Below, piece after piece: positions 13,952 to 31,493 of a stretch of DNA of 64,000 nucleotides. Made by a program: the position numbers and the translations under genes. The notes beneath the pieces were generated by a model. That model was not told the origin of the DNA. It worked only from the letters and a program-made list of their open reading frames with translations, and did no database searches. How positions within the stretch are numbered: position 1 is the first letter of the stretch; each line of letters starts with the position of its first letter. The DNA is from Alphaproteobacteria bacterium (GTDB lineage Bacteria > Pseudomonadota > Alphaproteobacteria > Rhizobiales > Hyphomicrobiaceae): contig JAHJSN010000126.1 of assembly GCA_018830445.1 (NCBI GenBank), forward strand, positions 1 to 64,000. The letters are read 5' to 3'.

Positions 13952-13979
13952 TAGACGACATTATGAGTTGGACGTTACA
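13952..13979 (-). promoter_or_regulatory. ECF-type promoter for cfa
   Basis: On the minus strand TGTAACG (13973-13979) is followed after exactly 15 nt by CGTCTA (13952-13957). The pair matches five other sites in the island. Orientation is toward cfa, whose ATG lies about 95 bp downstream. The rest of the 291-bp gap 13857-14147 shows no gene. Confidence 0.75.
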
Positions 13980-14147
13980 GTTCGCTGCCGCAGAGACGGT
14001 CTGCGCGATTCTGCAAGTCCACGCGTAATAGCCGAGCCATCTCAAACAAGGCGCGTAAATCGGCAAACACTGAGCGTCCGTCCGTGGCCACACCGACGGT
14101 CCGGGTTGTTTCAGTCCATTTTTCACTGAGCCAGCAAGGAGATCCGG

Positions 14148-14609
14148 ATGGTCATTGCAATGTTTCTGGCCGTACTACTGGCGATATCAACGTTCTTATT
14201 TCATTTTGCTGTTTTGCGCTGGTTGTCAGGAAGCTTGGCCCGTGTACCCATGACCAATGGCATCCGCATCCTGGTTATCGTGCTTGCGATCCTTGCAGCG
14301 CATGTTGTCGAAGTCCTGATGTACGCAGGCGCGTTTACGTTGGCTGTCGAGGTTGTTTCGATTGGAGGCTTTGGTGGGCGGGGGGCAGATACCCCGCTCG
14401 ACTATCTGTATTTCTCGATCGTCAGCTTCACTTCGCTTGGGCTAGGCGACGTCTATCCATTGGGTCATTTGCGGCTACTCACAGGTATTGAGGCTCTCAA
14501 CGGCCTACTGCTCATCGCTTGGTCAGGATCGTTCATCTACACGGCAATGGAGCGCCTTTGGCCTTGGGAGCCTTGCGCTCAGCCGCAGAACCGAAAAACA
14601 GACAAGTGA
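14148..14609 (+). CDS. Two-helix ion-channel (Ion_trans_2-like) membrane protein
   Basis: A 153-residue membrane protein with two N-terminal hydrophobic segments (residues 1-25 and 38-63), a pore loop and a last helix (LLTGIEALNGLLLIAWSGSFIY). The pore carries TSLGLGDVYP, which aligns with the potassium selectivity filter T-x-G-Y-G-D-x-x-P; Tyr is replaced by Leu. No RCK or cyclic-nucleotide domain is present. GGAG is found upstream of the ATG. It lies between the cfa promoter region and a convergent EamA gene, in no clear operon. Ion selectivity is uncertain because of the filter change. Confidence 0.75.
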   Translation: MVIAMFLAVLLAISTFLFHFAVLRWLSGSLARVPMTNGIRILVIVLAILAAHVVEVLMYAGAFTLAVEVVSIGGFGGRGADTPLDYLYFSIVSFTSLGLGDVYPLGHLRLLTGIEALNGLLLIAWSGSFIYTAMERLWPWEPCAQPQNRKTDK

Positions 14610-14632
14610 GGACGGCCTACCCTTCAGCCACC

Positions 14633-15520
14633 TCAGGCACTGCCCTCTGTTTTTTCACCGCAAAGCACCAGGCCGACGCCGAGGAGCGTAAGCAGTATGC
14701 CTGCAAACTGGTAGGAATTGAGTGTCTCGCTGAAAAGCAACCAGCCCATGATCAGGCCAAATATCGGGACCAGAAAACTGAACGCGTTTGCACGGCTGAG
14801 CTGAGTTTTTTGGAGAACTGAAAACCACAACCAGTAAGCCAGTGCAGTTCCGGGAAGGCTGACGAAGACAAGAATGGTCAGGAATTCCAATGACCATTTT
14901 ACCTGGGTCGGATCTTCTGTGAGTGAGGCAAGTAGCGCGAGCGGAATACTGCCGATCAGCATTTGCAGACCCATCCCCATGAGCGCGTCGATCTCACCGG
15001 ACAACGTCTTGATCACCACGTTGCTCACCGAAATTCCGGCCGCGGCGAGAAGAATGTAGGCAATTCCCAGCAGGAAATCGTCCTGTCCACCAGCGGAAAG
15101 CTGAGGCGTGCTGATTACGAAAATGCCAAGGAAGCCAACGCAAAGCCCTGTTTTTGCCTTTAGGCTCAGAACTTCATTTAAGACGAAAGCGCCTAGGCCG
15201 GCCGCCATGAGCGGCTGCGCGTTCGCGACGACCGTGGCGAGGCCTGGGGAGACAAACTCCGCAGCATGGAACATGCCGAGAAAACCGAGTGATGTTGCGC
15301 CTATGCCGACAATGCTCAGTTTTCCCCAAAGTCTCACATCTCGAGGAATTTTCTGACGCAGCCAGATTGCGATCGCCGCCAGTGTCAAGCCAGCCAGGCC
15401 TGCGCGCAGCGCGGCGAAAGTAAGATGGGGGGCCAGATCGATACCTACTGCGAGTGCGGGAAAGCAAGAAGCCCAAAGCAACATCACGAGCACAATTTGG
15501 GCGACCGTGAAACGGCTCAA
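14633..15520 (-). CDS. EamA/DMT-family transporter
   Basis: A 295-residue membrane protein with ten hydrophobic segments in two five-helix EamA repeats, starting with QIVLVMLLWASCFPALAVGI. The second repeat begins near LGIAYILLAAAGISVSNVVI. Drug/metabolite exporters of this family move amino acids, nucleosides or metabolites; the substrate cannot be predicted. It ends 24 nt from the convergent ion-channel gene. A 175-bp gap to the next gene on the same strand shows no recognisable element. Confidence 0.88.
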   Translation of the reverse strand: MSRFTVAQIVLVMLLWASCFPALAVGIDLAPHLTFAALRAGLAGLTLAAIAIWLRQKIPRDVRLWGKLSIVGIGATSLGFLGMFHAAEFVSPGLATVVANAQPLMAAGLGAFVLNEVLSLKAKTGLCVGFLGIFVISTPQLSAGGQDDFLLGIAYILLAAAGISVSNVVIKTLSGEIDALMGMGLQMLIGSIPLALLASLTEDPTQVKWSLEFLTILVFVSLPGTALAYWLWFSVLQKTQLSRANAFSFLVPIFGLIMGWLLFSETLNSYQFAGILLTLLGVGLVLCGEKTEGSA

Positions 15521-15695
15521 TATCTCGATTTCCTATCTGCGAGTAGTCTGGATAGACCACAATGCATACACAAGATTACGGCCACCGAACAGTGTACTCC
15601 TGTCACGTGAGGCGATAGCATTTTAGCATGACGCCAAAGCTGTCGGTACTCTCGGTGGCGACAATAGCTTACTTGGGTACGGATCGAATGCGTTT

Positions 15696-16406
15696 CTACG
15701 GACCCCAAGCCCAAGCAACGGTCCGAGCAGCTTCGGAGCGACCAAGGTGCGACTCAACGGACTTGACACCATCGACGTTTTCAGCCGCAATCCGGGCGGC
15801 GCGCTGCTCTTTGTCTGTCTCGACGTCACCCCAAAGGTGGACGCCACCATCGTGAACGGTGACGTTCATGAGGGCGACGTGGAGGCCGTCGATATCGGCC
15901 AAGGCTTGCATGACATTCCCACGAAGGGCCCGATCATCAAGATTCGGCGATGACGCAGACTGTGCAGTCGTTGCAGCAAGGCCATGAAGTAGATTAGCGC
16001 GGCTGACAATACCGACCAGCTGGCCGTTGTCGACCACCGGAACACGTTTGATCCTGTTATTTTCCAACAGCCTCGCTATGTCGGAGACCGCTGTGTCCGG
16101 TGTAATGGAGATCACTTCGCGCGTCATTACATCTGAGGCCTTGCGCCCTTCGGTCTTGACGAATTCGGAGACGTTCTTGTGAGGGGCAGAGAAAACTCCG
16201 AGCCACCAGGACCCTTTCGTATCGGTCTCCCCTTCAAGTCGGCGCATCAAGTCGCCTTCACTGACGAGCCCCAGCAGGTTTCCCGCGTCATCGACAACTG
16301 GCACGGCGCTGATCCCATGCTTCAGGAGAAGATTGGCGACATCGGTGATGCTGCTGTCGCCTCCAACCGTGATGACTTTTTCGGTCATGATATCGCTGGC
16401 GTGCAT
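15696..16406 (-). CDS. CBS-pair and BON domain protein
   Basis: A 236-residue soluble protein with two CBS domains (about residues 1-60 and 90-145; MTEKVITVGGDSSITDVA and DVMTREVISITPDTAVSDIA) and a C-terminal BON domain (155-225; NVMQALADIDGLHVALMNVT, VETDKEQRAARIAAENVDGV). CBS pairs bind adenosine nucleotides; BON domains bind phospholipid or envelope surfaces. Such CBS-BON proteins are common in stress islands but their function is unknown. A motif matching the ECF promoter stands at 16565-16592, about 160 bp upstream, pointing to this gene. Confidence 0.9.
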   Translation of the reverse strand: MHASDIMTEKVITVGGDSSITDVANLLLKHGISAVPVVDDAGNLLGLVSEGDLMRRLEGETDTKGSWWLGVFSAPHKNVSEFVKTEGRKASDVMTREVISITPDTAVSDIARLLENNRIKRVPVVDNGQLVGIVSRANLLHGLAATTAQSASSPNLDDRALRGNVMQALADIDGLHVALMNVTVHDGGVHLWGDVETDKEQRAARIAAENVDGVKSVESHLGRSEAARTVAWAWGP

Positions 16407-16564
16407 TGGAGTGCTCCTAGTCTAGAGGATAAATCCGATTTCCAAGTACATGCCAGCTTTCGATTTTCCATCACTCCTTTCGGAGTTCGAATTCTCTATC
16501 CGGAATGGCAGTGCGGTTGATTTAGGAACCGATTGCGTCTCCGTCAAAGCCGGCCTGTGCGAGT

Positions 16565-16592
16565 AAGACGACAATGAGCAGCGAGCGTTACA
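16565..16592 (-). promoter_or_regulatory. ECF-type promoter for the CBS-BON gene
   Basis: Minus-strand TGTAACG (16586-16592), 15-nt spacer, CGTCTT (16565-16570): a full match to the island consensus. It is back to back with the promoter of the sigma gene at 16613, so one short region would fire in both directions. Confidence 0.75.
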
Positions 16593-16612
16593 CGATCGAC
16601 AAAGAGCTTCGG

Positions 16613-16638
16613 TAACGATGACCACCGCTAAACGTCCT
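16613..16638 (+). promoter_or_regulatory. ECF-type promoter for the sigma factor gene (autoregulation)
   Basis: TAACG at 16613-16617 (in GGTAACG), 15-nt spacer, CGTCCT at 16633-16638. One base differs from consensus in each box (G for T in -35, C for T in -10), so it may be a weaker site. The ATG of the sigma gene follows 32 bp further on. It suggests the sigma factor drives its own gene. Confidence 0.65.
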
Positions 16639-16670
16639 TTGCAACAGCGGATCTAAACGCGGAGAAGACC

Positions 16671-17279
16671 ATGACCCACAGCGACGAGAAGCGACCAAAA
16701 AGCGATGCCGTGTACTCGGTGATGGTAGAGATCCAAAAAGACATGTTGCGCATGCTCACACGTCGGCTGGGCAACCCGGATGAGGCCGCCGACGTGCTAC
16801 AAGATTTCTACGCCAAGGTCTTGGCTCGGATGGGTGATGTGAAGGACACGGAGAAACTTCGAGGCTGGATGCGGCGGGTACTCGAAACAACTCTGATCGA
16901 TTACTACCGGGCTCAGGGTAAGCGGCGTAGCGGCGAGGCCGAGTTTGGACGCCTGGAGCAAGGTCTGGAGCGCAGTGAGGATCCCGACGACTTGGACTTT
17001 GCGATCTGCATGTGTCTCTACAAACTGTTGCCGACCTTGAAGTCAGAATATGCCGACGTGTTGTGGCGCGCAGACCTCATGGGGCAGCAGCGCGAAGAGA
17101 TCCTAGCCGAGCTTGGTCTTTCAGACAGCAACCTGCGGGTCCGGTTGCACCGCGCGCGGCAGGCGCTGAGGCAGCGTCTCCAAGAAACCTGCCAAGTCTG
17201 CCCAATTCATGGTTTTTTGAGCTGTGGCGATGACTGCGTGATTGCTGACCAGGCAAAACGCGCGAAGAACCGTTCCTGA
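16671..17279 (+). CDS. ECF sigma factor with CxC linker and Cys-rich C-terminus (copy 1)
   Basis: A 202-residue sigma-70-family ECF factor. Region 2 (residues 20-85) includes EAADVLQDFYAKVLARM. Region 4 (about 115-172) includes the CLYKLLPTLKSEYADVLWRA block and the DNA-recognition helix SDSNLRVRLHRARQAL. Unusual are C113-x-C115 between the two regions and the tail C174-x2-C177-x2-H180-G-x3-C185-x3-C189. The paralogue at 26140 keeps the same pattern, so a metal- or redox-sensing site is likely, comparable in principle to CorE-type factors with C-terminal cysteine domains. No anti-sigma gene is adjacent. Consensus promoters flank it on both sides. Confidence 0.9.
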   Translation: MTHSDEKRPKSDAVYSVMVEIQKDMLRMLTRRLGNPDEAADVLQDFYAKVLARMGDVKDTEKLRGWMRRVLETTLIDYYRAQGKRRSGEAEFGRLEQGLERSEDPDDLDFAICMCLYKLLPTLKSEYADVLWRADLMGQQREEILAELGLSDSNLRVRLHRARQALRQRLQETCQVCPIHGFLSCGDDCVIADQAKRAKNRS

Positions 17280-17280
17280 C

Positions 17281-17308
17281 TGTAACGATCGCCAAGGCCT
17301 TCCGTCTA
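17281..17308 (+). promoter_or_regulatory. ECF-type promoter for the YHS-PHA operon
   Basis: TGTAACG at 17281-17287, 15-nt spacer, CGTCTA at 17303-17308. The -35 begins 2 bp after the sigma stop codon; the same placement, promoter right behind the sigma gene, is seen at the second sigma gene. The first downstream ATG is at 17403. Confidence 0.8.
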
Positions 17309-17402
17309 TCTATTCACAAGTTCGCCAGCAACCGGCCGTGTCTGCAATTCACGTTGGCATGCGGCAAGGTTGTTCGGCCAACCATCGCGGAGGACAAGAA
17401 CC

Positions 17403-17762
17403 ATGGACGTCGTCGCCTATTTTTTAATGTGGGCCGTGATCGGTTACTTCCTCATGCGTGTGGGTTGCGGCGCCCATGCCTCAGGGCATGGCCATAACCA
17501 TGGTGGTGCGAAACGTGACCACGCAGCGCATGGCGCGAACGGGCAACCCTCGGATTTGAAGTGGATTGCACCGGCTCAGGACATCGACCCTGTCTGCGGC
17601 AAGACCGTAAGCACCGACAAGGCCAAGTCGAGCGTGCATGACGGCATCGTCTACTATTTTTGCTCGCGAGAATGCCGCGAAATGTTCGAAGCCGCACCCG
17701 ATCAGTACGTTGGTGCCCAAGCCGAACACCCAACCCAGCCGATGGAGCTGAGCCATGTCTGA
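17403..17762 (+). CDS. Membrane-anchored His-rich YHS-domain protein
   Basis: A 119-residue protein with one N-terminal membrane helix (VVAYFLMWAVIGYFLM), a His/Gly-rich linker (HASGHGHNHGGAKRDHAAHG) and a YHS domain (residues 62-105) with IDPVCGKTV and YYFCSRECREMF. YHS domains bind metal through the Cys-x-x-x and C-x3-C pairs and occur in copper ATPases and copper chaperones. I start at the ATG at 17403; an in-frame extension to 17370 crosses the leader. It is the first gene of the overlapping PHA-type operon and a likely metal-binding entry point. Confidence 0.85.
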   Translation: MDVVAYFLMWAVIGYFLMRVGCGAHASGHGHNHGGAKRDHAAHGANGQPSDLKWIAPAQDIDPVCGKTVSTDKAKSSVHDGIVYYFCSRECREMFEAAPDQYVGAQAEHPTQPMELSHV

Positions 17763-18093
17763 CGTGTCTATTTCCACGGTGCCCCGTCGACATGCTGGAA
17801 CGGCTCTGCCCATTGAGCAGGCGCCCAGGATTCCAGTGTTCGCGTTCGGCATGAGCCTGGGGCTATTTTTGGCCGTGACGTTCGCGTTGTGCGTTGGTTT
17901 TGATCTTCTGTTTCCCGGTCAGGCCATGTACGAGAGTTGGTTGAAACTCTTGCCAGGGTTTACCTGGCTGACTTGGCCAAGCTTCTTTCTCGGTTTGGCT
18001 GAGAGTTTCGCATACGGCTGGTACATCGCACTCATCTTCGGGCCGCTCTTCAATGTCTTTTCCGCAATGAGTTGGCGTGGAGGTCGATCATGA
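17755..18093 (+). CDS. DUF5676-type two-helix membrane protein
   Basis: A 112-residue protein with two membrane helices (about residues 32-52 and 78-100) separated by LLPGFTWLTWPSFFLGL, a block that is strongly shared with the 93-residue protein at 53193 (FFPGFEWLTLQGVLIGLVES). This matches the DUF5676 pattern as I remember it. Function unknown. The start overlaps the YHS gene by 8 nt and the stop overlaps the next ATG (ATGA), so translation is coupled. A second copy in the CueR-type regulon ties the family to copper conditions. Confidence 0.78.
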   Translation: MSDVSISTVPRRHAGTALPIEQAPRIPVFAFGMSLGLFLAVTFALCVGFDLLFPGQAMYESWLKLLPGFTWLTWPSFFLGLAESFAYGWYIALIFGPLFNVFSAMSWRGGRS

Positions 18094-19922
18094 CCGTCGT
18101 GCTGAAAACGGATGGCGTAGAGCCGGTCGAAAAGCGTCCGAAGAAAAACTCCAAACAAAATATTACTGCATCTGTTGTTCCGACCACGGCAATCCATCAA
18201 CAGGGTCCAGTGACCGAACTGCGTGGCAACGATCTCTTTCGCTACCAGGTAGATGTTTGGCAGCGGAGCATACTCTTCTGGGACACCCTGAGACAGCGCG
18301 CCAACAACATGCTTGAGCACGAGCGTGCCGGGCTGCCGCCCGTTCTGGACTTCAAGTACGAGATCATTCTGGATGCACGCAACTTTGAAAAACCAGCAAA
18401 TTATGCGCTCCTGCGCATCACGGAAGTTGGTGAGGATTGCTGGGAGGACTGCGTCGACCCGGACAAGCCGCCAGTGATTGTTGTCGATCCACGTGCCGGA
18501 CACGGGCCCGGAATCGGTGGCTTCAAGCAAGAATCCGAAGTCGGAATGGCGCTACATGAGGGCCACCCCGTCTACTTCGTTGTGTTCTTCCCGGAGCCGG
18601 CCCCAGGTCAGTCGCTGGCAGATGTCCTGCATGCATTGCGGCGCTTTGTCGAGGAGGTTGCCGGCCGCCATTCTGGTACACCGCCCGTCCTCTACGGCAA
18701 TTGCCAGGCGGGCTGGGCCGTAACGATGTTGTCGGCAGACTGCGAGGGGCTTGCCGGACCAGCAGTCCTAAACGGTTCGCCATTGTCCTACTGGGCGGGC
18801 GAGTCGGGTGTGAACCCGATGCGTGTGTCGGGTGGTCTCCTCGGGGGAGCATGGATAACGCATCTGATTGCAGATCTTGGGAATGGCCGGTTCGATGGCG
18901 CTTGGCTTGCCCAGAACTTCGAAAACCTTAAACCGGAAAAAGCCATTTGGGAAAAGTATGCAAGCCTGTTTCATGGCGTCGATACCGAACGTGATCGGTT
19001 CCTTGAATTCGAGCGCTGGTGGAATGGGTTTTATTTTCTGAGCCGCGAAGAAATCTTGGCAATCGTTGAGAATCTTTTCATCGGCAACCAGTTGGAACAG
19101 GGCCTCATGCGCGTATGCGAGGGCTGTATTGCCGACCTGAGGCGGATCCGCAATCCAATCATCGTATTCGCTTCCTATGGCGATAACATCACCCCGCCCC
19201 ATCAGGCCTTAGGGTGGATTCCAGCGGTTTACAAGGATACCAATGAACTCAAGCAGGCCGGCCAGAGGATCGTCTATCTAACCAATCCGCACGTCGGCCA
19301 CCTTGGCATCTTCGTTTCGGGCAAGGTGGCCCGTTTTGAACATCGAGCCATCCTGGAAAGCCTCGACGAGATTGAGGCACTCGATCATGGTCTCTACGAA
19401 ATGAAGATCGATAACCCATCGGGCGACCCAGATTGTCATAAGCCCGACTATTCCGTTCGCTTTGAGCCACGACAGGTCGGAGATCTGAGGGCGGATTATC
19501 CGCGCGCCGCGTTCGAGAAGGTACAGCGGGCCTCAGAGTTCAATGAGACGATGTATCGGACATTCGTTAGCCCCTGGGTGCAGAGCGCATCGAATCCTTG
19601 GGTGGCCGAATGGTTGAAGTGGATGCATCCCATGCGCACCAGCCGTTATCTGTTCTCGGAAACATTCAACCCTTGGATGCGCGGGGTTGCGATCCTGGCT
19701 GAGACGATCGCGAAAGACCGAAAACCATTCCCCAAGGATCATCCACTCATCGAAAAGGAGCGACAGATGTTTGATGAGGTCAGCTCCACGATCGAGCGCG
19801 CTCGTGTTGGGCGCGATGCGGGCTACGAGCAGCTCTTCAGCTTGCTCTATGGCGGACCTGGCAGCATGGAGCCGAGCATCCGGCCTGACGGCGACTTGGC
19901 AGAGAAAGCCCATGACAACTAG
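18090..19922 (+). CDS. DUF3141 protein (alpha/beta-hydrolase-like, PHA-linked)
   Basis: A 610-residue soluble protein. The part from about residue 130 to 330 has an alpha/beta-hydrolase look: VIVVDPRAGHGPGIGGFKQE, then PVLYGNCQAGWAVTMLSA, where the nucleophile elbow G-N-C-Q-A-G carries Cys as in PHA synthases, and VFASYGDNITPPHQAL with the acid residue region. The pattern matches DUF3141, whose biochemical role is unknown; its PhaC-like Cys elbow suggests an acyl-transfer or thioesterase role. It overlaps the DUF5676 gene by 4 nt and the kinase gene by 11 nt, which points to a common pathway with the kinase, acyltransferase and PhaC. Confidence 0.85.
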   Translation: MTVVLKTDGVEPVEKRPKKNSKQNITASVVPTTAIHQQGPVTELRGNDLFRYQVDVWQRSILFWDTLRQRANNMLEHERAGLPPVLDFKYEIILDARNFEKPANYALLRITEVGEDCWEDCVDPDKPPVIVVDPRAGHGPGIGGFKQESEVGMALHEGHPVYFVVFFPEPAPGQSLADVLHALRRFVEEVAGRHSGTPPVLYGNCQAGWAVTMLSADCEGLAGPAVLNGSPLSYWAGESGVNPMRVSGGLLGGAWITHLIADLGNGRFDGAWLAQNFENLKPEKAIWEKYASLFHGVDTERDRFLEFERWWNGFYFLSREEILAIVENLFIGNQLEQGLMRVCEGCIADLRRIRNPIIVFASYGDNITPPHQALGWIPAVYKDTNELKQAGQRIVYLTNPHVGHLGIFVSGKVARFEHRAILESLDEIEALDHGLYEMKIDNPSGDPDCHKPDYSVRFEPRQVGDLRADYPRAAFEKVQRASEFNETMYRTFVSPWVQSASNPWVAEWLKWMHPMRTSRYLFSETFNPWMRGVAILAETIAKDRKPFPKDHPLIEKERQMFDEVSSTIERARVGRDAGYEQLFSLLYGGPGSMEPSIRPDGDLAEKAHDN

Positions 19923-21132
19923 GCCCCTGATCTTAGTGATCAATAGCGGCTCGTCGAGCATCAAGTTCGCTGCGTTCGATGTCGAACGGGAGGAGCCTAA
20001 GCGGGTGTTTGCGGGGACACTTGAGCGAATCGGTCTTGACGCGGGGCGGTTCGTGGCAACGGGCACGGGCGGTGGCGTGCTTGTCGATCAGGGGCAGGAA
20101 CTCCCCAACCACGTCGTTGCATTGGACCTGCTTCTGGGATGGGTCGAGAACAGCACGTCGCAAGCGGAGATTGTCGCGGTTGGGCATCGTATCGTCCATG
20201 GCGGGCCGGACTGCGATTGCGCGCTACCGGTCACTCCTTCCCTTGAGGCGCGATTGAAGAGGCTTATCCCGCTTGCGCCATTACACCTGCCGCACAACCT
20301 CGCCGGTATCACGGCAATCCGGTTGCGCCGACCAGACCTTATTCAGGTCGCTTCCTTTGACACGGCATTTCATCATGGCTTGCCACGGGTGGCACAAATG
20401 ACGGCACTTCCGCGCCGGTTCGAAGGTGATGGCATCAGGCGCTACGGCTTCCATGGACTATCCTATGAATACGTCATCGAGGAGATTAGACGTCGGGACG
20501 GGCCGGCGGGAGCAAATGCAAGAATCATCGTCGCACATCTTGGTAACGGTGCTTCGATGGCAGCCATAAAGAATGGGCAAAGTGTTGAGACCACGATGGG
20601 CTTCAGCACGCTCGCGGGCCTACCGATGGGGACGCGCCCTGGCGGTCTCGACCCTGGGATCCTGCTGCATCTCTTGATCGAGAAGAAGATGAAACCGGAG
20701 GCACTGCAGCACTTGCTTTATGAGCATTCGGGACTGATAGGGATCTCCGGCTTCAGCCGTAGCATGGCAGACCTTATCGAGCATCAAGAGTTGCCAGCAG
20801 TGCGGGAGGCCATCGAATATTTTTGCCACCATGCCCGACGGCATCTGGCCGGTCTTACCGCCTCGCTCGGAGGACTTGATCGCGTGGTGTTCACGGGCGG
20901 CATCGGTGCCAATTCGCCTGAGATCCGAGCGCGCATTTGTGAAGGGCTGGACTATCTCGGCATCATTATTGATCCGGATCGTAACAAGGCCAGGCAACGG
21001 GTCATTTCCGCGGAAAGTATTCCAGTACATATCGAGGCCTTCAAGACCGACGAGGAGTTCGTCATCGCTCGGCATGTTCAGGGCACACTGCGTAAATCGA
21101 AGCTGGCTGGAAAGGCTCATGCCCATGTCTGA
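19912..21132 (+). CDS. ackA: Acetate/propionate/butyrate kinase family protein
   Basis: A 406-residue acetokinase-family enzyme: NSGSSSIKFAAFD at the N-terminus (phosphate loop), VASFDTAFHHGLP (catalytic Asp region), FHGLSYEYV, IVAHLGNGASMAAIKNGQS and VFTGGIGANSPEIR near the end. It makes acyl phosphate from a carboxylate and ATP, or the reverse. The ATG at 19912 lies inside the DUF3141 gene (11-nt overlap). With the phosphotransacylase that follows it could feed acyl-CoA to the PHA synthase, or recover ATP from acyl-CoA released by PHA breakdown. Whether acetate, propionate or butyrate is used is not visible. Confidence 0.92.
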   Translation: MTTRPLILVINSGSSSIKFAAFDVEREEPKRVFAGTLERIGLDAGRFVATGTGGGVLVDQGQELPNHVVALDLLLGWVENSTSQAEIVAVGHRIVHGGPDCDCALPVTPSLEARLKRLIPLAPLHLPHNLAGITAIRLRRPDLIQVASFDTAFHHGLPRVAQMTALPRRFEGDGIRRYGFHGLSYEYVIEEIRRRDGPAGANARIIVAHLGNGASMAAIKNGQSVETTMGFSTLAGLPMGTRPGGLDPGILLHLLIEKKMKPEALQHLLYEHSGLIGISGFSRSMADLIEHQELPAVREAIEYFCHHARRHLAGLTASLGGLDRVVFTGGIGANSPEIRARICEGLDYLGIIIDPDRNKARQRVISAESIPVHIEAFKTDEEFVIARHVQGTLRKSKLAGKAHAHV

Positions 21133-22129
21133 GAGCCCCGCCAATCTGGACGAGTTGATTGGGCGCGCAAAAATGCGTCCAACTATCCGCGTCGCTGTCG
21201 TCGAGGCCCATCAAGCCCTCGTAGTCAAGGCCGTACATGAGGCAACGTTGCTTGGACTGATTGAAGCAACACTCATTGGCAACCGCGATGCGATCCTGAA
21301 ATGCACAAAGGATGTCGGACTGACGATTGAGGCTGACCAAATCATCGGCACAACGGACGCTGCTGCCGCTGCTCGCAAAGGCGTCGAATTGGTCAAGTCT
21401 GGCCACGTCGATGCGGTGATGAAGGGAAACATCCACACCGATATCGTCATGAGGGCGTTGCTCGATTCCAAAAGTGGCCTGAGGGTTCCATTCCGGCGCG
21501 TCAGCCACGTTTTTCTCGTCGATGTGCCGACCTACCCAAAACTCCTGGCGGTGACCGACGCGGCAATCAATATCGCCCCCGATCTTATGGCCAAGGCGCA
21601 GATCCTCGAGAACGCGATCGAACTGCTTCACCTGATCGGAGTTGAAACACCAAAAGCCGCGGTACTTTCCGCCGTCGAGACCATCAATCCGGCCATTGTC
21701 TCGACATTGGACGCAGCCGGCCTCACGATGATGAGCAGTCGGGGACAGATTGCGGGCGCAATTGTCGATGGTCCATTTGCCTTCGACAACGCGATTTCAA
21801 AGAGAGCAGCACGCGAAAAAGGAATCGTCTCAGAAGTTGCCGGAGATGCCGACATCCTTCTCGTGCCCGATCTGATCTCCGGAAACATCCTGGCGAAGTG
21901 CCTCGAATATCTGGCCGGTGCAACAGCGGCCGGCATGGTGATGGGGCTGTCCGTGCCCGTAGTTCTTTCATCGCGCGCCGATCCTCCAGCTGCACGTCTG
22001 GCGGCATTGGCGATTGCGGTATTGATACACCGCGTCGCGCGCGATGAAGTCAGGCCTGAGCCGGAGGAGGGTTCGGCAATTCATTGTGCGGTTCAGCCCG
22101 AGAGTGCCTGCTGCCGGGTCGGAGTGTAA
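21125..22129 (+). CDS. Phosphate acetyl/butyryltransferase (PTA_PTB family)
   Basis: A 334-residue enzyme of the phosphotransbutyrylase type: RVAVVEAHQALVVKAV, DAVMKGNIHTDIVMRALL, RVSHVFLVDVPTYPKLLAVT and ADILLVPDLISGNILAKCLE. It exchanges CoA and phosphate on acyl groups. In many bacteria this domain is fused behind a MaoC hydratase domain; here the MaoC protein is a separate gene at 32492 in another operon of the same putative regulon. The start could be 21119 or 21125; I take 21125 because AAAGG is 9 nt in front of it. It overlaps the kinase gene by 8 nt. Confidence 0.88.
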   Translation: MSESPANLDELIGRAKMRPTIRVAVVEAHQALVVKAVHEATLLGLIEATLIGNRDAILKCTKDVGLTIEADQIIGTTDAAAAARKGVELVKSGHVDAVMKGNIHTDIVMRALLDSKSGLRVPFRRVSHVFLVDVPTYPKLLAVTDAAINIAPDLMAKAQILENAIELLHLIGVETPKAAVLSAVETINPAIVSTLDAAGLTMMSSRGQIAGAIVDGPFAFDNAISKRAAREKGIVSEVAGDADILLVPDLISGNILAKCLEYLAGATAAGMVMGLSVPVVLSSRADPPAARLAALAIAVLIHRVARDEVRPEPEEGSAIHCAVQPESACCRVGV

Positions 22130-22132
22130 CCC

Positions 22133-23917
22133 ATGCAGGATGTACCAACGAAGAGAACCAAACAATTGGCCAAGCTCCCGCCCTGCCATGTCGTCGAGAC
22201 GGATTCTCCTATCGCTCTTGATCGACCCACGCATGCTGCACTCGGCCGATTGACAGGCGGCATTTCACCGGTCGCACTTAGCCTTGCCTATTCCGACTGG
22301 ATCCAGCACCTCATGCTGTCGCCTGACAAGCACATCGACTTGGTTCTCAAGGCGCAACGCGCCTGGTCGCAATATCTCGGATACTGCATAAGGTCGTGCG
22401 CTGATCCCTCCTGTGCCTCCTGCGTTGCTCCCTTGCCGCAGGACAAACGCTTCAAGAATGAGGCCTGGCAGGCTTGGCCGTACCTTCAGATTCAGCAGGG
22501 ATTTTTGTTGACGCAACAGTGGTGGCAGGACGCCACGACAAATATCACCGGTGTCTCAAAGCATCATGAGGAAGTTGTTTCATTTGTCGCACGTCAACTT
22601 CTCGACACCCTATCCCCGGCGAATTTTCCGGCAACGAACCCCGAGGTGTTGGAGGAGACCGTTGCAACCCGAGGCCAGAATTTCGTGAAGGGTGCCGCGC
22701 ACCTCATGGAAGATCTGCAACGTCATATACGCAGCAGGCCACCCGTTGGCACAGAAAACTATGTCGTCGGGCGCGATGTGGCCACCACCCCAGGCCAAGT
22801 CGTTTTTCGCAACGAATTGATCGAGCTGATCCAATACGCACCAGCAACCGATGTCGTGCATCCCGAGCCTGTGCTGATCGTGCCGGCCTGGATCATGAAG
22901 TACTATATCCTCGACCTCAGCCCTGAAAATTCACTGGTAAGATTCTTGGTCGGACAGGGGCATACGGTCTTCATGGTCTCATGGAAAAATCCGGGTGTCG
23001 AAGATCGCAATTTCGGCATGGAGGATTATCGAACACGCGGCGTCATGACCGCATTGGATGTGGTGGAGTCGATCTTTCCCGGTCGGCGCATCCATGGTGC
23101 CGGCTATTGTCTCGGCGGCACTCTTCTGTCGATCGCCGCGGCTGCCATGGCCCGAGACGTTGATGACCGGATCGCCACCTTGACCCTTTTCGCGGCCCAG
23201 ACCGATTTTACAGAGGCCGGCGAACTGATGCTGTTCATCGACGAGGCCGAAGTTGGCTTTCTTGAGAGCATCATGGCGGAAAAAGGATATCTCGATTCAA
23301 AGCAGATGGCTGGCGCGTTCCAGCTACTACGCTCAAATGACCTCGTTTGGTCCGCCATGGTGCAAAACTATCTCATGGGAAAGCGACGGCCCATGTTCGA
23401 TCTCATGGTGTGGAACGCCGATGCCACACGCATGCCAGCGCGGATGCACTCGGAATACCTGCGGCAGCTTTTCCTGGATAACGATCTGGCCGATGAACGC
23501 TATCGCGCCGATGGGCGGCCGGTTTCGTTGCGAGACATTCGCATTCCCATCTTCGCCGTGAGCACGCTCTCTGATCACGTTGCCCCCTGGCGGTCGGTCT
23601 ACAAGATCCACGCCCAAACCAATGCCGATGTCACGTTCGTGCTGTCCAGCGGTGGTCACAATGCCGGCATCGTCAACCCACCTAAGAACTCAAAACGCTT
23701 CCACCAGATCGCGACACACGATGATCTAGCGGCCTATCTCGATCCTGATAGCTGGCAGGAGCGCGCGGTTCATCATGACGGCTCCTGGTGGCCGTGTTGG
23801 CAGGCTTGGCTTACCGAACATTCTGGTGATCCCGTCGGGGCCCCGCCGATGGGCGGAGGCCGAAAGGGTTCCGTGCCGCTCGGCGACGCTCCAGGCACAT
23901 ACGTACTCGCGCCCTAA
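22133..23917 (+). CDS. phaC: Class I polyhydroxyalkanoate synthase
   Basis: A 594-residue synthase that polymerises (R)-3-hydroxyacyl-CoA. The N-terminal PhaC_N domain (about residues 60-240) is followed by the alpha/beta-hydrolase domain. The lipase-like box is GAGYCLGG with nucleophile Cys; the catalytic Asp lies in STLSDHVAPW and the His in SSGGHNAGIVNPP. Length and the C-terminal DPDSWQERAVHHDGSWWP block are typical for class I. It starts 3 nt after the acyltransferase stop. No phaA, phaB, phasin or depolymerase gene is in the window, so this is probably an accessory synthase with its own supply genes. Confidence 0.95.
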   Translation: MQDVPTKRTKQLAKLPPCHVVETDSPIALDRPTHAALGRLTGGISPVALSLAYSDWIQHLMLSPDKHIDLVLKAQRAWSQYLGYCIRSCADPSCASCVAPLPQDKRFKNEAWQAWPYLQIQQGFLLTQQWWQDATTNITGVSKHHEEVVSFVARQLLDTLSPANFPATNPEVLEETVATRGQNFVKGAAHLMEDLQRHIRSRPPVGTENYVVGRDVATTPGQVVFRNELIELIQYAPATDVVHPEPVLIVPAWIMKYYILDLSPENSLVRFLVGQGHTVFMVSWKNPGVEDRNFGMEDYRTRGVMTALDVVESIFPGRRIHGAGYCLGGTLLSIAAAAMARDVDDRIATLTLFAAQTDFTEAGELMLFIDEAEVGFLESIMAEKGYLDSKQMAGAFQLLRSNDLVWSAMVQNYLMGKRRPMFDLMVWNADATRMPARMHSEYLRQLFLDNDLADERYRADGRPVSLRDIRIPIFAVSTLSDHVAPWRSVYKIHAQTNADVTFVLSSGGHNAGIVNPPKNSKRFHQIATHDDLAAYLDPDSWQERAVHHDGSWWPCWQAWLTEHSGDPVGAPPMGGGRKGSVPLGDAPGTYVLAP

Positions 23918-23974
23918 GGCAGCGAAGGCCGCTGACGTGTCGCCGATGAAACTATGTAAGAAAGGGGGCCTCTG

Positions 23975-24757
23975 ATGGAAGTGATTGATCTAAAAGGCCG
24001 CAAAGGATTGGTGGTTGGTATTGCGAACGAACACAGTCTGGCTTGGTCTGCTGCAAAGCACTTCCGCAATGCCGGGGCTGATCTCGCAATTACATATTTG
24101 AACGACAAGGCAGAGGCTTATGTTGAACCGCTAGCGAAAGAGGCGGAAGCAGCAATCTTTATGCCGTGTGATGTTGCCAAGCCGGGCGATCTGGAGGCTG
24201 TGTTTGCCGAGATCAACGCAAAGTGGGGCCGTCTTGATTTTCTGCTTCACTCGATCGCCTGGGCGCGGAAGGAGGATCTGAACGGCCGCCTGACGGATTG
24301 CTCCGCCGAGGGCTTTGCAGAATCAATGCTAATCTCCGTGCACTCCTTTATTCGCATGGCAAAGTTCGCCGAGCCGTTGATGCAGAGCGGCGGCAGCATG
24401 ATGACCATGAGCTACTACGGCGCCGAAAAAGTCGTCGACCATTACAATGTTATGGGACCGGTAAAAGCAGCGCTCGAGGCTTCCGTGCGCTATCTCGCCC
24501 ACGAGTTGGGGCGCACGTCGATTCGCGTCAATGCGATCTCGGCTGGCGCGGTAGCAACGCGGGCGGCCTCAGGTATTGAGCATTTCGACGAACTCTTGAA
24601 CGAAACCGTGCACAAAGCGCCTCTGCGGCGGACGGTGGAGGCGTGCGAAGTCGGTCGCGCAGCCTTAGTGCTGGCGAGCGATTACTCAAGCGCGATTACG
24701 GGTGAAACGCTACACGTCGATGCGGGCTTTCATATCGAAGGGATGGTATTTCACTGA
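23975..24757 (+). CDS. fabI: Enoyl-ACP reductase, FabI type
   Basis: A 260-residue short-chain-dehydrogenase-type reductase. It has the FabI NAD-binding pattern GLVVGIANEHSLAWSAAKH, the HSIAWARKEDLNGRL segment, and the catalytic Y-x6-K (YNVMGPVK, after SYYGAEKVVDHY); GETLHVDAGFHIEGM closes the protein. It completes each cycle of fatty-acid elongation. Being in the same transcription unit as phaC it may be a stress-inducible second copy that shifts lipid composition or resists inhibitors; the housekeeping copy would lie elsewhere. A 57-nt gap separates it from phaC, and the YHS gene overlaps its stop. Confidence 0.92.
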   Translation: MEVIDLKGRKGLVVGIANEHSLAWSAAKHFRNAGADLAITYLNDKAEAYVEPLAKEAEAAIFMPCDVAKPGDLEAVFAEINAKWGRLDFLLHSIAWARKEDLNGRLTDCSAEGFAESMLISVHSFIRMAKFAEPLMQSGGSMMTMSYYGAEKVVDHYNVMGPVKAALEASVRYLAHELGRTSIRVNAISAGAVATRAASGIEHFDELLNETVHKAPLRRTVEACEVGRAALVLASDYSSAITGETLHVDAGFHIEGMVFH

Positions 24758-24972
24758 TGCTGGAGTTCGGCCAAGAGAAAGAATTGACGCGCACAGATCC
24801 GGTCTGCAGAAAGACCTTGACGCTGGATCAAGTCGTCGCCCAAGAGGAGCATAACGGGTGGGCATACTTCTTCTGCTCGTACGCTTGCCAAAAGACCTTT
24901 CTTGAAGATCCAAAGCATTACGCAACGAATGATATTAATTTGGCTTCAAAGGCTGGCCAAGGCAGTCCGTGA
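24757..24972 (+). CDS. Short YHS-domain protein
   Basis: A 71-residue protein made almost only of one YHS domain: TDPVCRKTLTLDQVV, then GWAYFFCSYACQKTFLEDPKHY. The Cys-x...F-C-x3-C ligand set is complete. The ATG shares its A with the last base of the fabI stop (TGATG), so it is translationally coupled. The operon is thus bracketed by two YHS proteins. Probable soluble metal-binding or metal-sensing factor; partner unknown. Confidence 0.85.
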   Translation: MLEFGQEKELTRTDPVCRKTLTLDQVVAQEEHNGWAYFFCSYACQKTFLEDPKHYATNDINLASKAGQGSP

Positions 24973-25332
24973 CGGCGTTTCCCAATTCGTTCTCGGGCCT
25001 CAGGTGACGTTCGATCCAATACTACCGGAAGCCGTAGTAGGCTTGCTGGGCGGATTATTTGTAACATTGTGTAACTCCCGCCACCATCGTGATTGACTCC
25101 ATCATGAGCTTTTGCTGCTCTCCGCTTGGGCTTTGTTTGGGTGCTGGCTGAACATCGAGTTCAGGCCATTCCTCCATTGCTTATCAGGGGCGAGCCTCGG
25201 CGACAGGTGAGGTTGGCGCGCCTGGCACCGATGATGCCTGCAAGTTCCCGTTTCCAGAAATCTCCGCCTGCGGAGTACTGATCTATGTCAACGCCTGCGC
25301 GATGGAGACGTGCTCAAATTTAATAGCCTTAA
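24973..25332. other. Intergenic region, no gene seen
   Basis: I see no coding frame with a recognisable product, no ECF-type motif with the right spacing and no MerR-type promoter in these 360 bp. TTGTAAC and TGTAACT occur at about 25062-25075 but without a CGTC box 15 nt behind. A promoter for the following gene is expected here but cannot be pointed out. Confidence 0.4.
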
Positions 25333-25785
25333 ATGGGGTTGGATCGCATGGGCAGGGGCCGCAAGAGGCTGCTGAAGATGATCCTGGTGTTCGCTATCGC
25401 GTTCAATCAGCTCGCAGCAGGCTTGGCTCATGCGGGTATGCTGGAAGGGCACAATCATCTACAGCATGATCACGCCTCGGCTGAGCAGCCACATGATCAT
25501 AGCGTGGCTCCTGTTAAGGGCGGACATGAGCACAACCAAGCCGTGTTGCCGAATGTCGGCAACACGGCTGGTAACGGCATTCCAGCTGGTTTGCCGAACA
25601 ACAGTCAGCACGATAAAAATCCCTGTTGCGCCGTAGGCTTCAGCCCTTGCGGTGTGATTTTACCTGTTCCGCTTGGCATTCCCAAACCTGCTGGATTGAT
25701 ACTGGCGAATGGTTCTTGGGAACCTGACAGCCCGAAATCTTGGCGCATTGCGCCATTGCTGCGCCCGCCGATTTTCATCTTCTGA
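25333..25785 (+). CDS. Secreted His-rich protein of the CopL/DUF2946-like kind
   Basis: A 150-residue protein with an N-terminal signal peptide (about residues 14-33, MILVFAIAFNQLAAGLAHA). A His-rich section follows (GHNHLQHDHASAEQPHDH), then NPCCAVGFSPCG and a C-terminus ending in PLLRPPIFIF. The layout His-rich, CC-x-C, hydrophilic, double-proline end recurs in the secreted proteins at 42684 and 51763 and resembles copper-resistance proteins of the CopL/DUF2946 kind. Periplasmic metal binding is likely, not shown. An alternative ATG at 25348 would shorten it by five residues. Confidence 0.65.
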   Translation: MGLDRMGRGRKRLLKMILVFAIAFNQLAAGLAHAGMLEGHNHLQHDHASAEQPHDHSVAPVKGGHEHNQAVLPNVGNTAGNGIPAGLPNNSQHDKNPCCAVGFSPCGVILPVPLGIPKPAGLILANGSWEPDSPKSWRIAPLLRPPIFIF

Positions 25786-26139
25786 TCGCCGTCCTCACGC
25801 TTGACAGCTGCTCGCGCTGACGTGCGCCCACTCTCGATGGCAATCGAAGAGGGTCGTTCCTAGCCTATCCATGTCTGAAGATGTCGGTGGTTGCGAGGCG
25901 CAACAGCGGAACGGTGAATTGCTTCAGGCTGGGCACCCTCGTACCACGCCGACATTCGCGGATAATTGCGCATGGGGCGCACCGGGGATGATGGCGTTGA
26001 GGGCTAATTCGGAGCGGTGATCAGAACTCCCCACATCCCGGTGCAGAGCCGGTCTCTCGCAAATCAAAATTAATTGCCCCCCGCCTTTCGGTCCCAATGC
26101 GTGTGACCCGTCGGTGGGCCTCCACTACGGAGCACTCAA
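25786..26139. other. Intergenic region upstream of the second sigma gene, no gene seen
   Basis: These 354 bp hold no convincing gene. Unlike the first sigma gene, there is no TGTAACG-N15-CGTCT site here, so copy 2 seems not to be autoregulated through that motif. CGTGTGACCCGTCGGTG near 26100 looks promoter-like but matches no motif that I can defend. Confidence 0.4.
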
Positions 26140-26862
26140 ATGAACACCGCCCAAAAACCAGCACCAAATGAACAACCGTCTATGCCAAAGCCTGGGAGTG
26201 TAAGGGACGTCACGGACGAAGCAGTGCCTCTTGATCCGCGCCTGCAAAGGCTGCTCGTGAAAAACCGCAGTAGCTTCCTGAGTTATTTGCTGAGACGGCT
26301 TGGTGATCGTGATGAGGCTGAAGATGTTCTCCAGGATTTCTGCATTCGGGTGATCAGGAAAGCCAGCCAGATCAGGGATGGCGGTGCGGCTGAGGGTTGG
26401 CTTCGTGCCGTCCTGAAATCGACGCTGATGGACCACTTCAGGAGCAGGTCATCCAAGAGGCAAGCCCACCAGAAGATGGTTGCTGAATGGTCTGCAACGG
26501 CAGAGCAACTCGAACCAGAGATCGACGAAGATCAGGCTATAGAAAGCGACGATTGCACCTGTCTTTACGGCTTGTTGCCGAAACTGAAGCCTGAGTATGC
26601 GGAGGCAATTACTCTCGTCGATTTGGCAGAGCGGACCCCTACGGACGCCGCCCATGATCTTGGAATCGCGGCCGGTACGATGCGTGTTCGACTCCACCGG
26701 GCCCGGCATGCCCTTAAATATGAGCTTGAGCAATCATGCGGCGGATGTCGGGAGCATGGATGCGCCTCGTCGTCAAAAAGACCAAGCTTTTCAACGGGAC
26801 AAGACGAATTCGTGGGTTGCCAAACCGCCGATGAGATCGAAGTCGTCGGGCAGGAGCGGTGA
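26140..26862 (+). CDS. ECF sigma factor with CxC linker and Cys-rich C-terminus (copy 2)
   Basis: A 240-residue paralogue of the factor at 16671. Shared blocks are RRLGDRDEAEDVLQDF (region 2), C139-x-C141-LYGLLPKLKPEYAEA and MRVRLHRARHALKYELEQ (region 4). The tail again carries C200-x2-C203-x2-H206-G-C208 and a further Cys 227. The N-terminal 30 residues are an extra Pro-rich extension. The two proteins are clearly divergent, so they may respond to different signals while reading the same promoter type. A consensus promoter starts 20 bp after its stop, as in copy 1. No anti-sigma gene is visible. Confidence 0.9.
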   Translation: MNTAQKPAPNEQPSMPKPGSVRDVTDEAVPLDPRLQRLLVKNRSSFLSYLLRRLGDRDEAEDVLQDFCIRVIRKASQIRDGGAAEGWLRAVLKSTLMDHFRSRSSKRQAHQKMVAEWSATAEQLEPEIDEDQAIESDDCTCLYGLLPKLKPEYAEAITLVDLAERTPTDAAHDLGIAAGTMRVRLHRARHALKYELEQSCGGCREHGCASSSKRPSFSTGQDEFVGCQTADEIEVVGQER

Positions 26863-26882
26863 ACAGATGCAAGATCGTAGAC

Positions 26883-26910
26883 TGTAACGTCGGCGCCGCT
26901 ACGGCGTCTT
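26883..26910 (+). promoter_or_regulatory. ECF-type promoter for the cytochrome c gene
   Basis: TGTAACG at 26883-26889, 15-nt spacer, CGTCTT at 26905-26910, directly behind the second sigma gene. The cytochrome c ATG follows at 27031, after a leader of about 115 nt without other features. Confidence 0.8.
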
Positions 26911-27030
26911 ACCAGAGTGCGACCGAAGGCGCGGGCTAAGCCCTGGGACGCGCATTGTCACGTTGATTGGAGCGTGGCGAATAGGAATCAAGCTTGCCAA
27001 ATGTTAACCGGCTCGAACTGAGGAGAATTC

Positions 27031-27462
27031 ATGAAGGGGTTAACCGTATCGAGTTTTGCCTTCGCGGTAGCAATCCTTGTGCTTGCGGGGATGCTGATGG
27101 CGCATTTCGGAGTCTTCGGTAGGGCCAGCACGTCGCCGAACGGCGTCATCGTTCCAGCGGTGTCTGGCGAAGCGCTCGCAGGTCAGGCCATTTTCGAAGC
27201 AAATTGTGCGTCATGTCACGGAATTAATGGCGTGGGAACGAACAAAGGCCCGCCACTTGTTCACGACATCTACAATCCTGGCCATCATAGCGATGATGCG
27301 TTTTATCGGGCCGTTCGCAACGGTGTCCATCAGCATCACTGGCCATTCGGCAATATGCCCGCACAGACGCAAGTCTCAGAGTCCCAAGTCGCTCAGATAC
27401 TGAGTTACGTCCGGGAGCTGCAGGCCGCAATTGGCATACATTACCGACCGCACCGCATGTAG
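27031..27462 (+). CDS. Membrane-anchored or secreted c-type cytochrome (copy 1)
   Basis: A 143-residue monohaem cytochrome c. An N-terminal hydrophobic segment (residues 5-27) serves as signal or anchor. The haem site is CASCH (residues 62-66) in ANCASCHGINGVGTNKGPPL; the sixth ligand is probably Met in GNMPAQTQVSESQV. The same architecture, including HHSD.AFYRA and QHHWPFGNMPA, recurs in the protein at 43403. The class resembles electron carriers of copper-resistance and oxidase clusters. It is driven by a putative ECF promoter. Confidence 0.9.
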   Translation: MKGLTVSSFAFAVAILVLAGMLMAHFGVFGRASTSPNGVIVPAVSGEALAGQAIFEANCASCHGINGVGTNKGPPLVHDIYNPGHHSDDAFYRAVRNGVHQHHWPFGNMPAQTQVSESQVAQILSYVRELQAAIGIHYRPHRM

Positions 27463-27586
27463 ACCCAAACGGAGGGAACCAGGACCGGGTGCCCCCGGGA
27501 TGCCGACGGTATTGCAAGAATGGAACGCGATCTCTGGTGAATTATAGCTACGGGCTAACGGAGGCAAACTCGCGAGGAGAACCGTC

Positions 27587-27817
27587 ATACACGGCAACGA
27601 CTTGTTTCATAGTTGGGGCAGTATCTTTACCGGTCCGGTTATCGTGGTTGCGCTGATATTTATTCTCTTCGTCATTTGGGCGGGAGGCAAAAACAGGACG
27701 CAGCGTGGGAACGAAAATGCAGTCGGCGATCCGCGAGAAATCTTGGATCAACGGTTCGCGCGCGGTGAAATTGGCTAGGATGAGTATCTGCGCAAGCGCG
27801 CAACACTCGAATCTTAG
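27587..27817 (+). pseudogene. Small SHOCT-domain membrane protein, start lost and amber stop
   Basis: In the gap 27463-28105 a frame reads HGNDLFHSWGSIFTGPVIVV, a membrane helix (VALIFILFVIWAGG) and then a SHOCT-like tail DPREILDQRFARGEIG, a TAG at 27776-27778, and DEYLRKRATLES with a final TAG. A good GAGGAGA ribosome site precedes by the usual distance not ATG but ATA (27587), so both the start and the reading frame are damaged by single-base changes. SHOCT tails (short C-terminal oligomerisation segments) are common in copper clusters. The gene is probably dead, unless ATA initiation and readthrough occur. Confidence 0.65.
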
Positions 27818-27991
27818 GCGCATCAAGCTCGGCTTGTCTCGCGACGTCCTGCCCAGACGCAAGTCATCGACGATCGGGTCGAGAGGATTGTGCACCGCGT
27901 CCGCCTGAAAAGTCGATCAACGATTCAAGTATTCGTCTCTTCGAATGCAATTCCATTCGAAGAGACCAGAAACCTCTCACGCCTTCGACGC

Positions 27992-28019
27992 TGTAACGCA
28001 CCGCCCCAGAGCGCGTCTA
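27992..28019 (+). promoter_or_regulatory. ECF-type promoter for the copper ATPase operon
   Basis: TGTAACG at 27992-27998, 15-nt spacer, CGTCTA at 28014-28019. The copper ATPase start follows about 90 bp downstream. This links copper export genes to the sigma-factor regulon. Confidence 0.8.
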
Positions 28020-30661: not shown

Positions 30662-31035
30662 CACCTGATCGTTGGTTGGTCCTGATTAGCGGATTACTAC
30701 TTGTCGCTTTCATCGTTTGGTTTTTCTGGATGAATCGCGCCAAGGGCGTGAAGGCCTCCGAAACCTCAAGCGGTCATCAAGAAGTGATGGTCCTGGTCAA
30801 GGGCGGATACACACCCGATACGATTATCGTCAGGCGCGGCAAGCCCGTGCGACTCAATTTTCGGCGCGAGGAAACGGCCTCGTGTTCCGAGAAAGTCATC
30901 TTCGCCGATTTCAAAAAAAGCGCAGATCTGCCCACTGGAGAGACGGTCGCGGTCGAGTTCCTGCCAGACAAGCCCGGCGAGTACGAATTCGGATGCGCGA
31001 TGGGAATGTTTCGCGGCAAGCTTATCGTTGAGTAG
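30658..31035 (+). CDS. Membrane-anchored cupredoxin-like protein
   Basis: A 125-residue protein with one N-terminal helix ([19 protein letters not shown]) and a cupredoxin-like beta domain: [37 protein letters not shown], and [16 protein letters not shown]. The likely copper ligands are Cys in SCSEK, Cys in FGCAMGMF and nearby Met. The start overlaps the ATPase stop (ATGA). Proteins of this kind are often encoded behind copper ATPases and may accept Cu on the periplasmic side. Confidence 0.85.
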
Positions 31036-31043
31036 GGCAAACG

Positions 31044-31439: not shown

Positions 31440-31493
31440 TAGGTCAAAAACCAAAGCATAGTCACATGGGCATCAATCGAAAAAGGAAAACAC

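Follow-up and report, generated by a model that had tools for sequence, protein, structure and literature searches.

Sequence features of the locus

The locus described here lies in a 64,000-nt stretch of alphaproteobacterial DNA (contig JAHJSN010000126.1), referred to as the window. All positions are those of the window, and the whole assembly scanned is 4.15 Mb. An island within it encodes two extracytoplasmic function (ECF) sigma factors, copies 1 and 2, and carries six promoter-like sites of the form TGTAACG-N15-CGTCT (Table 1). The sites are very probably the promoters of a metal- or redox-sensing ECF regulon that is served by the island sigma factor or factors, works without an anti-sigma factor and lies on mobile DNA.

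Table 1. Promoter-like sites, sigma factor genes and neighboring genes. ORF, open reading frame; PHA, polyhydroxyalkanoate; G003, a genome of the same genus; matrix, score with the matrix built from other genomes.
Feature	Position	Strand	Basis and remarks
Promoter-like site TGTAACG-N15-CGTCTA before cfa	13952..13979	-	Pattern scan; kept in G003; matrix 18.9
Promoter-like site TGTAACG-N15-CGTCTT before CBS-BON gene	16565..16592	-	Kept in G003 with CGTCC; matrix 17.1
Weaker promoter-like site GGTAACG-N15-CGTCCT before sigma copy 1	16611..16638	+	Matrix 15.2; not kept in G003
Promoter-like site behind sigma copy 1, before YHS...fabI...YHS operon	17281..17308	+	Kept in G003; matrix 25.0
Promoter-like site behind sigma copy 2, before cytochrome c	26883..26910	+	Kept in G003; matrix 22.3
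Promoter-like site before copper ATPase gene run	27992..28019	+	Kept in G003; matrix 24.3
ECF sigma factor copy 1 (P0001)	16671..17279	+	Pfam Sigma70_r2, Sigma70_r4_2; linker CxC C113, C115; tail C174-X2-C177-X7-C185-X3-C189
ECF sigma factor copy 2 (P0002)	26140..26862	+	Pfam Sigma70_r2, Sigma70_r4_2; linker CTC; tail C-X2-C-X4-C plus distal Cys
Cyclopropane-fatty-acyl-phospholipid synthase (cfa)	12540..13856	-	Pfam CMAS 7e-89; ORF from TTG; the actual start may lie a few codons further in
CBS-CBS-BON protein	15696..16406	-	Pfam CBS 1e-34, BON 2.6e-12
Gene run YHS, DUF5676, DUF3141, acetate kinase, phosphate acetyl/butyryltransferase, PHA synthase, FabI, YHS	17370..24972	+	Pfam, NCBIfam
Cytochrome c	27031..27462	+	Pfam Cytochrom_C 9.5e-15
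Copper-type P1B ATPase gene run	28106..32425	+	NCBIfam TIGR01511 607.8 bits (cut-off 397); Pfam
Tyrosine integrase at island border	10654..11850		

Promoter-like sites

A sequence-only reading of the window had proposed six sites with an invariant spacer, located 30–160 bp ahead of correctly oriented genes, two of them directly behind the two sigma genes, and had seen none in 10 kb of chromosome. A pattern scan for KGTAACG-N15-CGTC finds all six, against 0.03 expected (100 dinucleotide shuffles, 0 reaching 6), and 0 sites in the first 10 kb of the window. The N15 spacing and the TGTAACG/CGTCT-like boxes hold at every site, and each lies about 30–160 nt upstream of a same-strand gene. The sites that follow the sigma genes begin 1 nt past the stop codon of copy 1 and 20 nt past that of copy 2. 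One start was corrected: the site before sigma copy 1 begins at 16611, not 16613. This site is the weakest, with two mismatches (GGTAACG...CGTCCT). The -10 box is CGTC[T/C] at 6/6 sites. No site was found upstream of sigma copy 2, and no extra TGTAAT or TGTAAG variant sites were found in the window.

Over the whole assembly, KGTAACG-N15-CGTC occurs seven times, six of them in the window (reversed-pattern control, 8), and TGTAAB-N16-CGTCT occurs six times, five of them in the window (control, 3). The exact motif TGTAACG-N15-CGTCTW is found five times, all in the island, and two one-mismatch sites lie elsewhere. At up to two mismatches the same motif is noise, with 68 matches vs 232 for the control. 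The genome scan that the sequence-only reading had proposed, run as patterns, thus places 5/5 exact sites within the island. The outside matches C38:36474 and C114:12574 were taken as chance, as was C79:381, which lies just behind an ORF and is followed, up to the end of the contig, by no ORF of 60 aa on its own strand.

The island is shared by G003, whose sigma genes show 79% and 38% identity to copy 1. There, five of the six sites are again present, ahead of genes 78–92% identical to their window counterparts; the consensus is absent at the position matching the site before sigma copy 1. Across the five site pairs, the -35 boxes are identical at 35/35 bases and the -10 boxes at 24/25, while the spacers agree at 34/75, the upstream flanks at 100/200 and the downstream flanks at 76/195. 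Identical boxes between diverged spacers and flanks form the footprint of two constrained boxes held at a fixed spacing.

A matrix was built from 37 loci of other genomes by scanning for TGTAA[CTG]N-N15-CGTC[TC], which gave 85 matches, 71 of them distinct after merging duplicate 36-mers. The pattern forced TGTAA and CGTC, barred A at position 6 and limited position 27 to T or C; positions 0, 7, 22 and 29 are independent evidence. Outside the forced bases, the 71 sites prefer C or G before TGTAA (65), G at 7 (51), G at 22 (43) and T at 29 (45). Position 27 is T in 62/71 within its restricted choice, and positions 8–21 hold at most 0.19 bits each. Applied to the window, the matrix puts exactly the six sites on top (15.2–25.0), and the next place scores 3.5. 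Shuffled controls gave 0 to 0.3 matches per locus (28 of the 37 loci, L085–L093 left out; slightly wider pattern, 10 shuffles each).

Sigma factors and their cysteines

Both copies have sigma2 and sigma4 domains, with Sigma70_r2 and Sigma70_r4_2 above the Pfam cut-off, and are 37% identical to each other. The best NCBIfam match of both was SigZ (TIGR02959, NF007215), which was rejected at 86.5/87.8 bits for copy 1 and 83.5/76.2 bits for copy 2 against cut-offs of 168.65/212. The linker between the domains contains a CxC pair, CMC in copy 1 and CTC in copy 2, and each tail contains a cysteine cluster. G003 has both tail forms, the copy 1 type and the copy 2 type. Among 52 homologues, with near-identical proteins (e.g., L085–L088) counted as distinct, the linker CxC is present in 49 and a CX2CX7CXC tail in 41, 11 of which have an extra Cys right after the second.

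This arrangement, which the sequence-only reading had not remarked on, recalls CorE of Myxococcus, in which cysteines of the sigma factor itself serve to sense copper. The tail of the 41 homologues has the spacing of CorE cysteines 181, 184, 192 and 194. This CorE-invariant pattern is missing from both window copies, which read CX2CX7CX3C (copy 1) and CX2CX4C (copy 2), and they are therefore called CorE-related rather than members of the CorE-like group (former ECF44). Copy 2 retains the equivalents of CorE cysteines 181, 184 and 189 and is without 192 and 194; copy 1 is without 189 and has one spacing stretched. No anti-sigma gene was recognized by Pfam beside the sigma genes, whose neighbors encode the CBS-BON protein, a YHS protein, cytochrome c and a 150-aa ORF without a match; an unrecognized one is possible. 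In two Marinobacter loci, L090 (10782–11426) and L092 (8733–9341), two sigma genes adjoin, and the second has a CTC linker and a tail reduced to CX2C.

Genes downstream of the sites

The copper-type P1B ATPase translation contains two CxxC motifs and CPC. It is followed in order by a protein weakly like the C-terminal (cupredoxin) part of NosZ, DUF1622, DUF2933 and an ICMT/PEMT-family protein. The PHA synthase scores 565.5 bits, under the subfamily cut-off of 622.65.

The nearest downstream ORF was recorded for 90 sites in the 37 loci and G003, some of them near-identical copies (L085–L088). Relatives of the window cfa follow 9 sites, relatives of the copper ATPase 6 (38–92% identical, of putative metal specificity) and relatives of sigma copy 1 5. 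An SDR protein follows 5 sites and is only 25–26% identical to FabI. Fewer sites precede DUF5676 (3), CBS-BON (2), EamA (2), the second YHS (2), the first YHS (1) and cytochrome c (1); other ORFs follow 48 sites and none follows 6. Seven plasmid loci contain 32 N15 sites, a count that omits one N16 match each in L124 and L129. Of these, 29 are followed within 315 bp by an annotated gene on the same strand, two are antisense inside a transporter gene and one has no adjoining annotated gene. The genes behind the plasmid-locus sites also include a universal stress protein. Cyclopropane synthase, heavy-metal ATPase and sometimes the sigma gene recur as targets. The recurrent core is the cyclopropane synthase and the P1B ATPase, and the remainder looks like energy and membrane maintenance.

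Distribution across genomes

The sigma factor was found at E ≤1e-15 in 17/397 genomes of the order and at E ≤1e-20 in 5/385 genomes of a class sample, the source genome counted in both. Copy 1 has matches, some of them distant, in 42 of 72,556 plasmid records at E ≤1e-5, and 5/7 plasmids examined were typed as conjugative. The system is rare, scattered among genomes and often plasmid-borne.

The exact motif TGTAACG-N15-CGTCT occurs at 15 sites in the 17 carriers of the order vs 35 in the other 380 genomes. Several carriers without the exact form have TGTAATG or TGTAAGG at the same places, some overlapping the sigma stop codon. The extended motif TGTAABG-N15-CGTCT was scanned in 30 hand-chosen genomes and gave 50 sites in 14 carriers (one carrier with 0) and 3 in 16 non-carriers; 10 of the 14 carriers were among the genomes scanned before this variant was defined. 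Four carriers came to light only once the motif had been settled, and 17 of their 18 sites are no more than 50 kb away from a sigma gene.

Ten loci at 59–78% identity come from records labeled Alphaproteobacteria (including BRH_c36, Rhodobiaceae, Stappia, Thalassospira, Maricaulis and Sneathiella) and Marinobacter; several are metagenome-assembled, and for those a misplaced contig is possible. Marinobacter maritimus CK47, titled as a strain, has the motif (L091). One of the three Marinobacter loci, L090, has no site. The sequence-only reading had called the regulon island-confined. This holds within the source genome, but other Alphaproteobacteria carry the same system, on chromosomes as well as plasmids, and so does Marinobacter.

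Control of the sigma genes

A site lies just before the sigma gene in L066, L067 (at 5974), L127, L129 and L130; most of the other sigma genes checked are preceded by a weak site or by none. Autoregulation is therefore a feature of some lineages. For copy 1 in the source genome it is unproven: the site that would make the gene a regulon member, as first proposed, is present, but it is doubtful, given its mismatches and the lack of a counterpart in G003.

L066 (14091), L067 (5279) and L129 (18578) belong to a related sigma group in which the sigma stop codon shares bases with the -35 box (TG-TAA-[T/C]G), so that the gene end and the next promoter are fused. On plasmids of Ancylobacter (L125, 21500–21526) and Pseudorhizobium (L126, 19712–19738), the motif precedes a Crp/Fnr gene, and the same site sequence is found in L065, genome G352. 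This placement suggests a sigma-to-Fnr cascade. In L042, L046 and L047, where no exact sigma motif was found, the element TTGATCTGNGTTAAAG lies upstream of the sigma gene. We take this element to be FixK/FNR-like, and its position suggests oxygen control of the sigma factor in this group.

Surroundings of the probable regulon

A second copper block at 39190–51174 encodes a multicopper oxidase, an outer-membrane efflux protein, a P-type ATPase with YHS and heavy-metal-binding domains, a sensor kinase beside a probable response regulator, and an amino-acid permease. This block may be under its own two-component system. An IS66-type transposase gene (58237–59931, in the region 57500–59931) lies downstream of the copper blocks. 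Between the regulon halves, the His-rich 150-aa ORF at 25333–25785, which has no Pfam match, is possibly a metal-binding exported protein. ARAGORN detected no tRNA in the window, and so no tRNA attachment site for the integrase.

Interpretation

The sites, their conservation, their tie to the sigma family and the Cys architecture were obtained by computation. From them we infer that the sigma factors bind the sites, that a metal is the signal, where each copy acts and at which positions transcription begins. The sites would serve as -35 and -10 elements (TGTAACG, 15 nt, CGTCT) read by RNA polymerase with one or both island ECF sigma factors. The sensor would be carried by the sigma factor itself, as the CxC pair in the sigma2-sigma4 linker and the C-terminal cysteine cluster, and CorE-like cysteines in both copies would provide sensing without an anti-sigma factor. 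Binding of a metal, most likely copper, or oxidation at the cluster would produce an active sigma form. Copper export, cytochrome c, cyclopropane synthase, the CBS-BON protein and the acetate-kinase/PHA-synthase/FabI run would then be switched on together, and the entire regulon would move as a single block. The identity of the boxes against diverged spacers in G003, the co-occurrence with the sigma family and the out-of-sample matrix favor the ECF regulon that the sequence-only reading had put forward.

Several results weigh against it. Twelve of the 17 carriers of the order lack the exact TGTAACG-N15-CGTCT motif and only 3 have two or more copies, and the TGTAATG/TGTAAGG variant was derived from those same loci. 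A few of the 85 matrix-type matches are surely chance, e.g., two antisense ones. The second copper block, at 39–51 kb, contains no TGTAAC-N15-CGTC site. The cysteine clusters are altered in both copies, so copper sensing cannot be assumed, and the predicted structure of copy 1 (predicted template modeling score 0.40; predicted local distance difference test <50 over residues 175–202) is uninformative at the cluster.

The signal of a genuine regulon may also differ from copper. Respiratory or redox failure, such as low oxygen or thiol oxidation, could be sensed instead, with the ATPase as one member of an energy-crisis regulon; we regard this as possible, though not the likelier case. Sites in relatives precede genes for phosphoketolase (L124), Crp/Fnr (L125, L126), L-lactate permease and cardiolipin synthase (L128), glycogen synthase (L129) and an NADH-quinone oxidoreductase-like gene run (L130). 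Two of the clusters (L126, L127) also contain arginine deiminase genes, and the departure of both window copies from the CorE-invariant cysteines fits the same idea. The P1B heavy-metal ATPases, of putative metal specificity, behind 6/90 sites and the one in the window speak for a metal, and the CorE cysteine cluster itself responds to the redox state of copper (PMC3107203). FNR-type boxes (≤1 mismatch) are only mildly enriched in the window, at 11 vs a shuffle mean of 6.12 with 2/100 shuffles reaching 11, which also counts against redox failure as the signal. The only perfect FNR box in the window, at 51658, is outside the regulon.

Other explanations would detach the sites from the island sigma factors or from promoters altogether. 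It is improbable that the motif serves as promoter for some other sigma factor, e.g., an ECF16-like one, with the island sigma factors as bystanders: from genome to genome it follows the CorE-like sigma genes and is concentrated near them. NrsF-family genes, presumably those of ECF16 partners, do lie on two relative plasmids. The mapped promoters of Sinorhizobium meliloti RpoE7 (ECF16) start with TGTAAC as well, but both continue with CGAAT, not CGTCT (PMC6180224). Operators of an activator or repressor, which can also be shared upstream motifs, are less probable still. The two boxes are unlike and separated by a fixed N15, the near-absence of information at positions 8–21 leaves no conserved dyad, the sites are correctly oriented before genes, and AAC and CGTC resemble ECF boxes (PMC3107203, PMC6180224). 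Chance or a copied repeat, for which only the GC-rich sequence speaks, has a negligible likelihood and is refuted by the shuffle result and the G003 comparison, in which flanks and spacers diverged around fixed boxes; no direct repeat of ≥20 nt is present at the sites.

A fuller picture built on the ECF regulon is doubtful. It would be a self-contained, horizontally spreading module in which two CorE-related sigma factors, divergent from each other and unlike in their cysteine sensors, share a single promoter code. Metal sensing by copy 1 would be redox-gated, and copy 2 would be a slow-to-switch-off version that prolongs the response. The module would couple copper export to cyclopropanation and to carbon and energy storage (acetate kinase, PHA) as a general answer to copper-poisoned respiration, and would move intact between proteobacterial classes.

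The promoter code TGTAA[C/T/G]G-N15-CGTCT would allow the regulon of a whole alphaproteobacterial family to be read from sequence, and metal stress would be tied to cyclopropane lipids and PHA metabolism. A sigma factor traveling with its targets bears on how transferred operons gain ready-made regulation. The cysteine variants (CXC, CX3C, CC, truncated) would provide a natural mutant series for metal specificity.

Comparison with known systems

The window sigma factors resemble CorE and CorE2 of Myxococcus xanthus (former ECF44, now partly ECF238) in the linker CxC, the C-terminal Cys-rich extension, the lack of a recognizable anti-sigma neighbor and target promoters before copper ATPase genes. 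In CorE and CorE2 the CxC and the Cys-rich extension are reported to be essential (PMC8999054). For CorE, no linked anti-sigma factor is reported, and cysteines 181, 184, 192 and 194 are described as the four absolutely conserved ones; C189 is the main activation residue, C184 is needed for inactivation, and the level in the absence of copper is higher in the substitutions C192A and C194A (PMC3107203). The 2011 CorE paper lists PHZ_p0174 of Phenylobacterium zucineum among 21 relatives. The only match on the P. zucineum plasmid record is 46.8% identical to copy 1 and by inference is this protein. The presumed kinship to CorE is drawn from the Cys architecture and the P. zucineum protein.

The tails differ from the C-X2-C-X7-C-X-C of CorE, reading C-X2-C-X7-C-X3-C in copy 1 and C-X2-C-X4-C in copy 2. 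Cyclopropane synthase, PHA/acetate-kinase/FabI genes and cytochrome c are additional members of the window regulon, which sits on mobile DNA. OrbS of Burkholderia cenocepacia is likewise an ECF sigma factor with an on-board Cys-cluster metal sensor, but its cluster is Cys-X2-Cys-X3-Cys-X5-Cys, and it is inhibited by Fe(II) and controls siderophore genes (PMC9023288). ECF16 (S. meliloti RpoE7) shares the -35 TGTAAC and differs in its -10 region (CGAAT, against CGTC[T/C] in the window), its anti-sigma gene and its targets (PMC6180224).

A 2023 survey reports CorE homologue matches in every marine species sampled, under a criterion far wider than the Cys architecture (PMC10141476). A 2021 review names CorE and CorE2 as the sole experimentally studied members of their metal-responsive group (PMC8103513). 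The literature searched describes neither this regulon nor its motif; a motif for the group may already have been published. Sigma factors with an on-board metal sensor are already known, and the window system differs from CorE in Cys spacing, targets and mobile setting.

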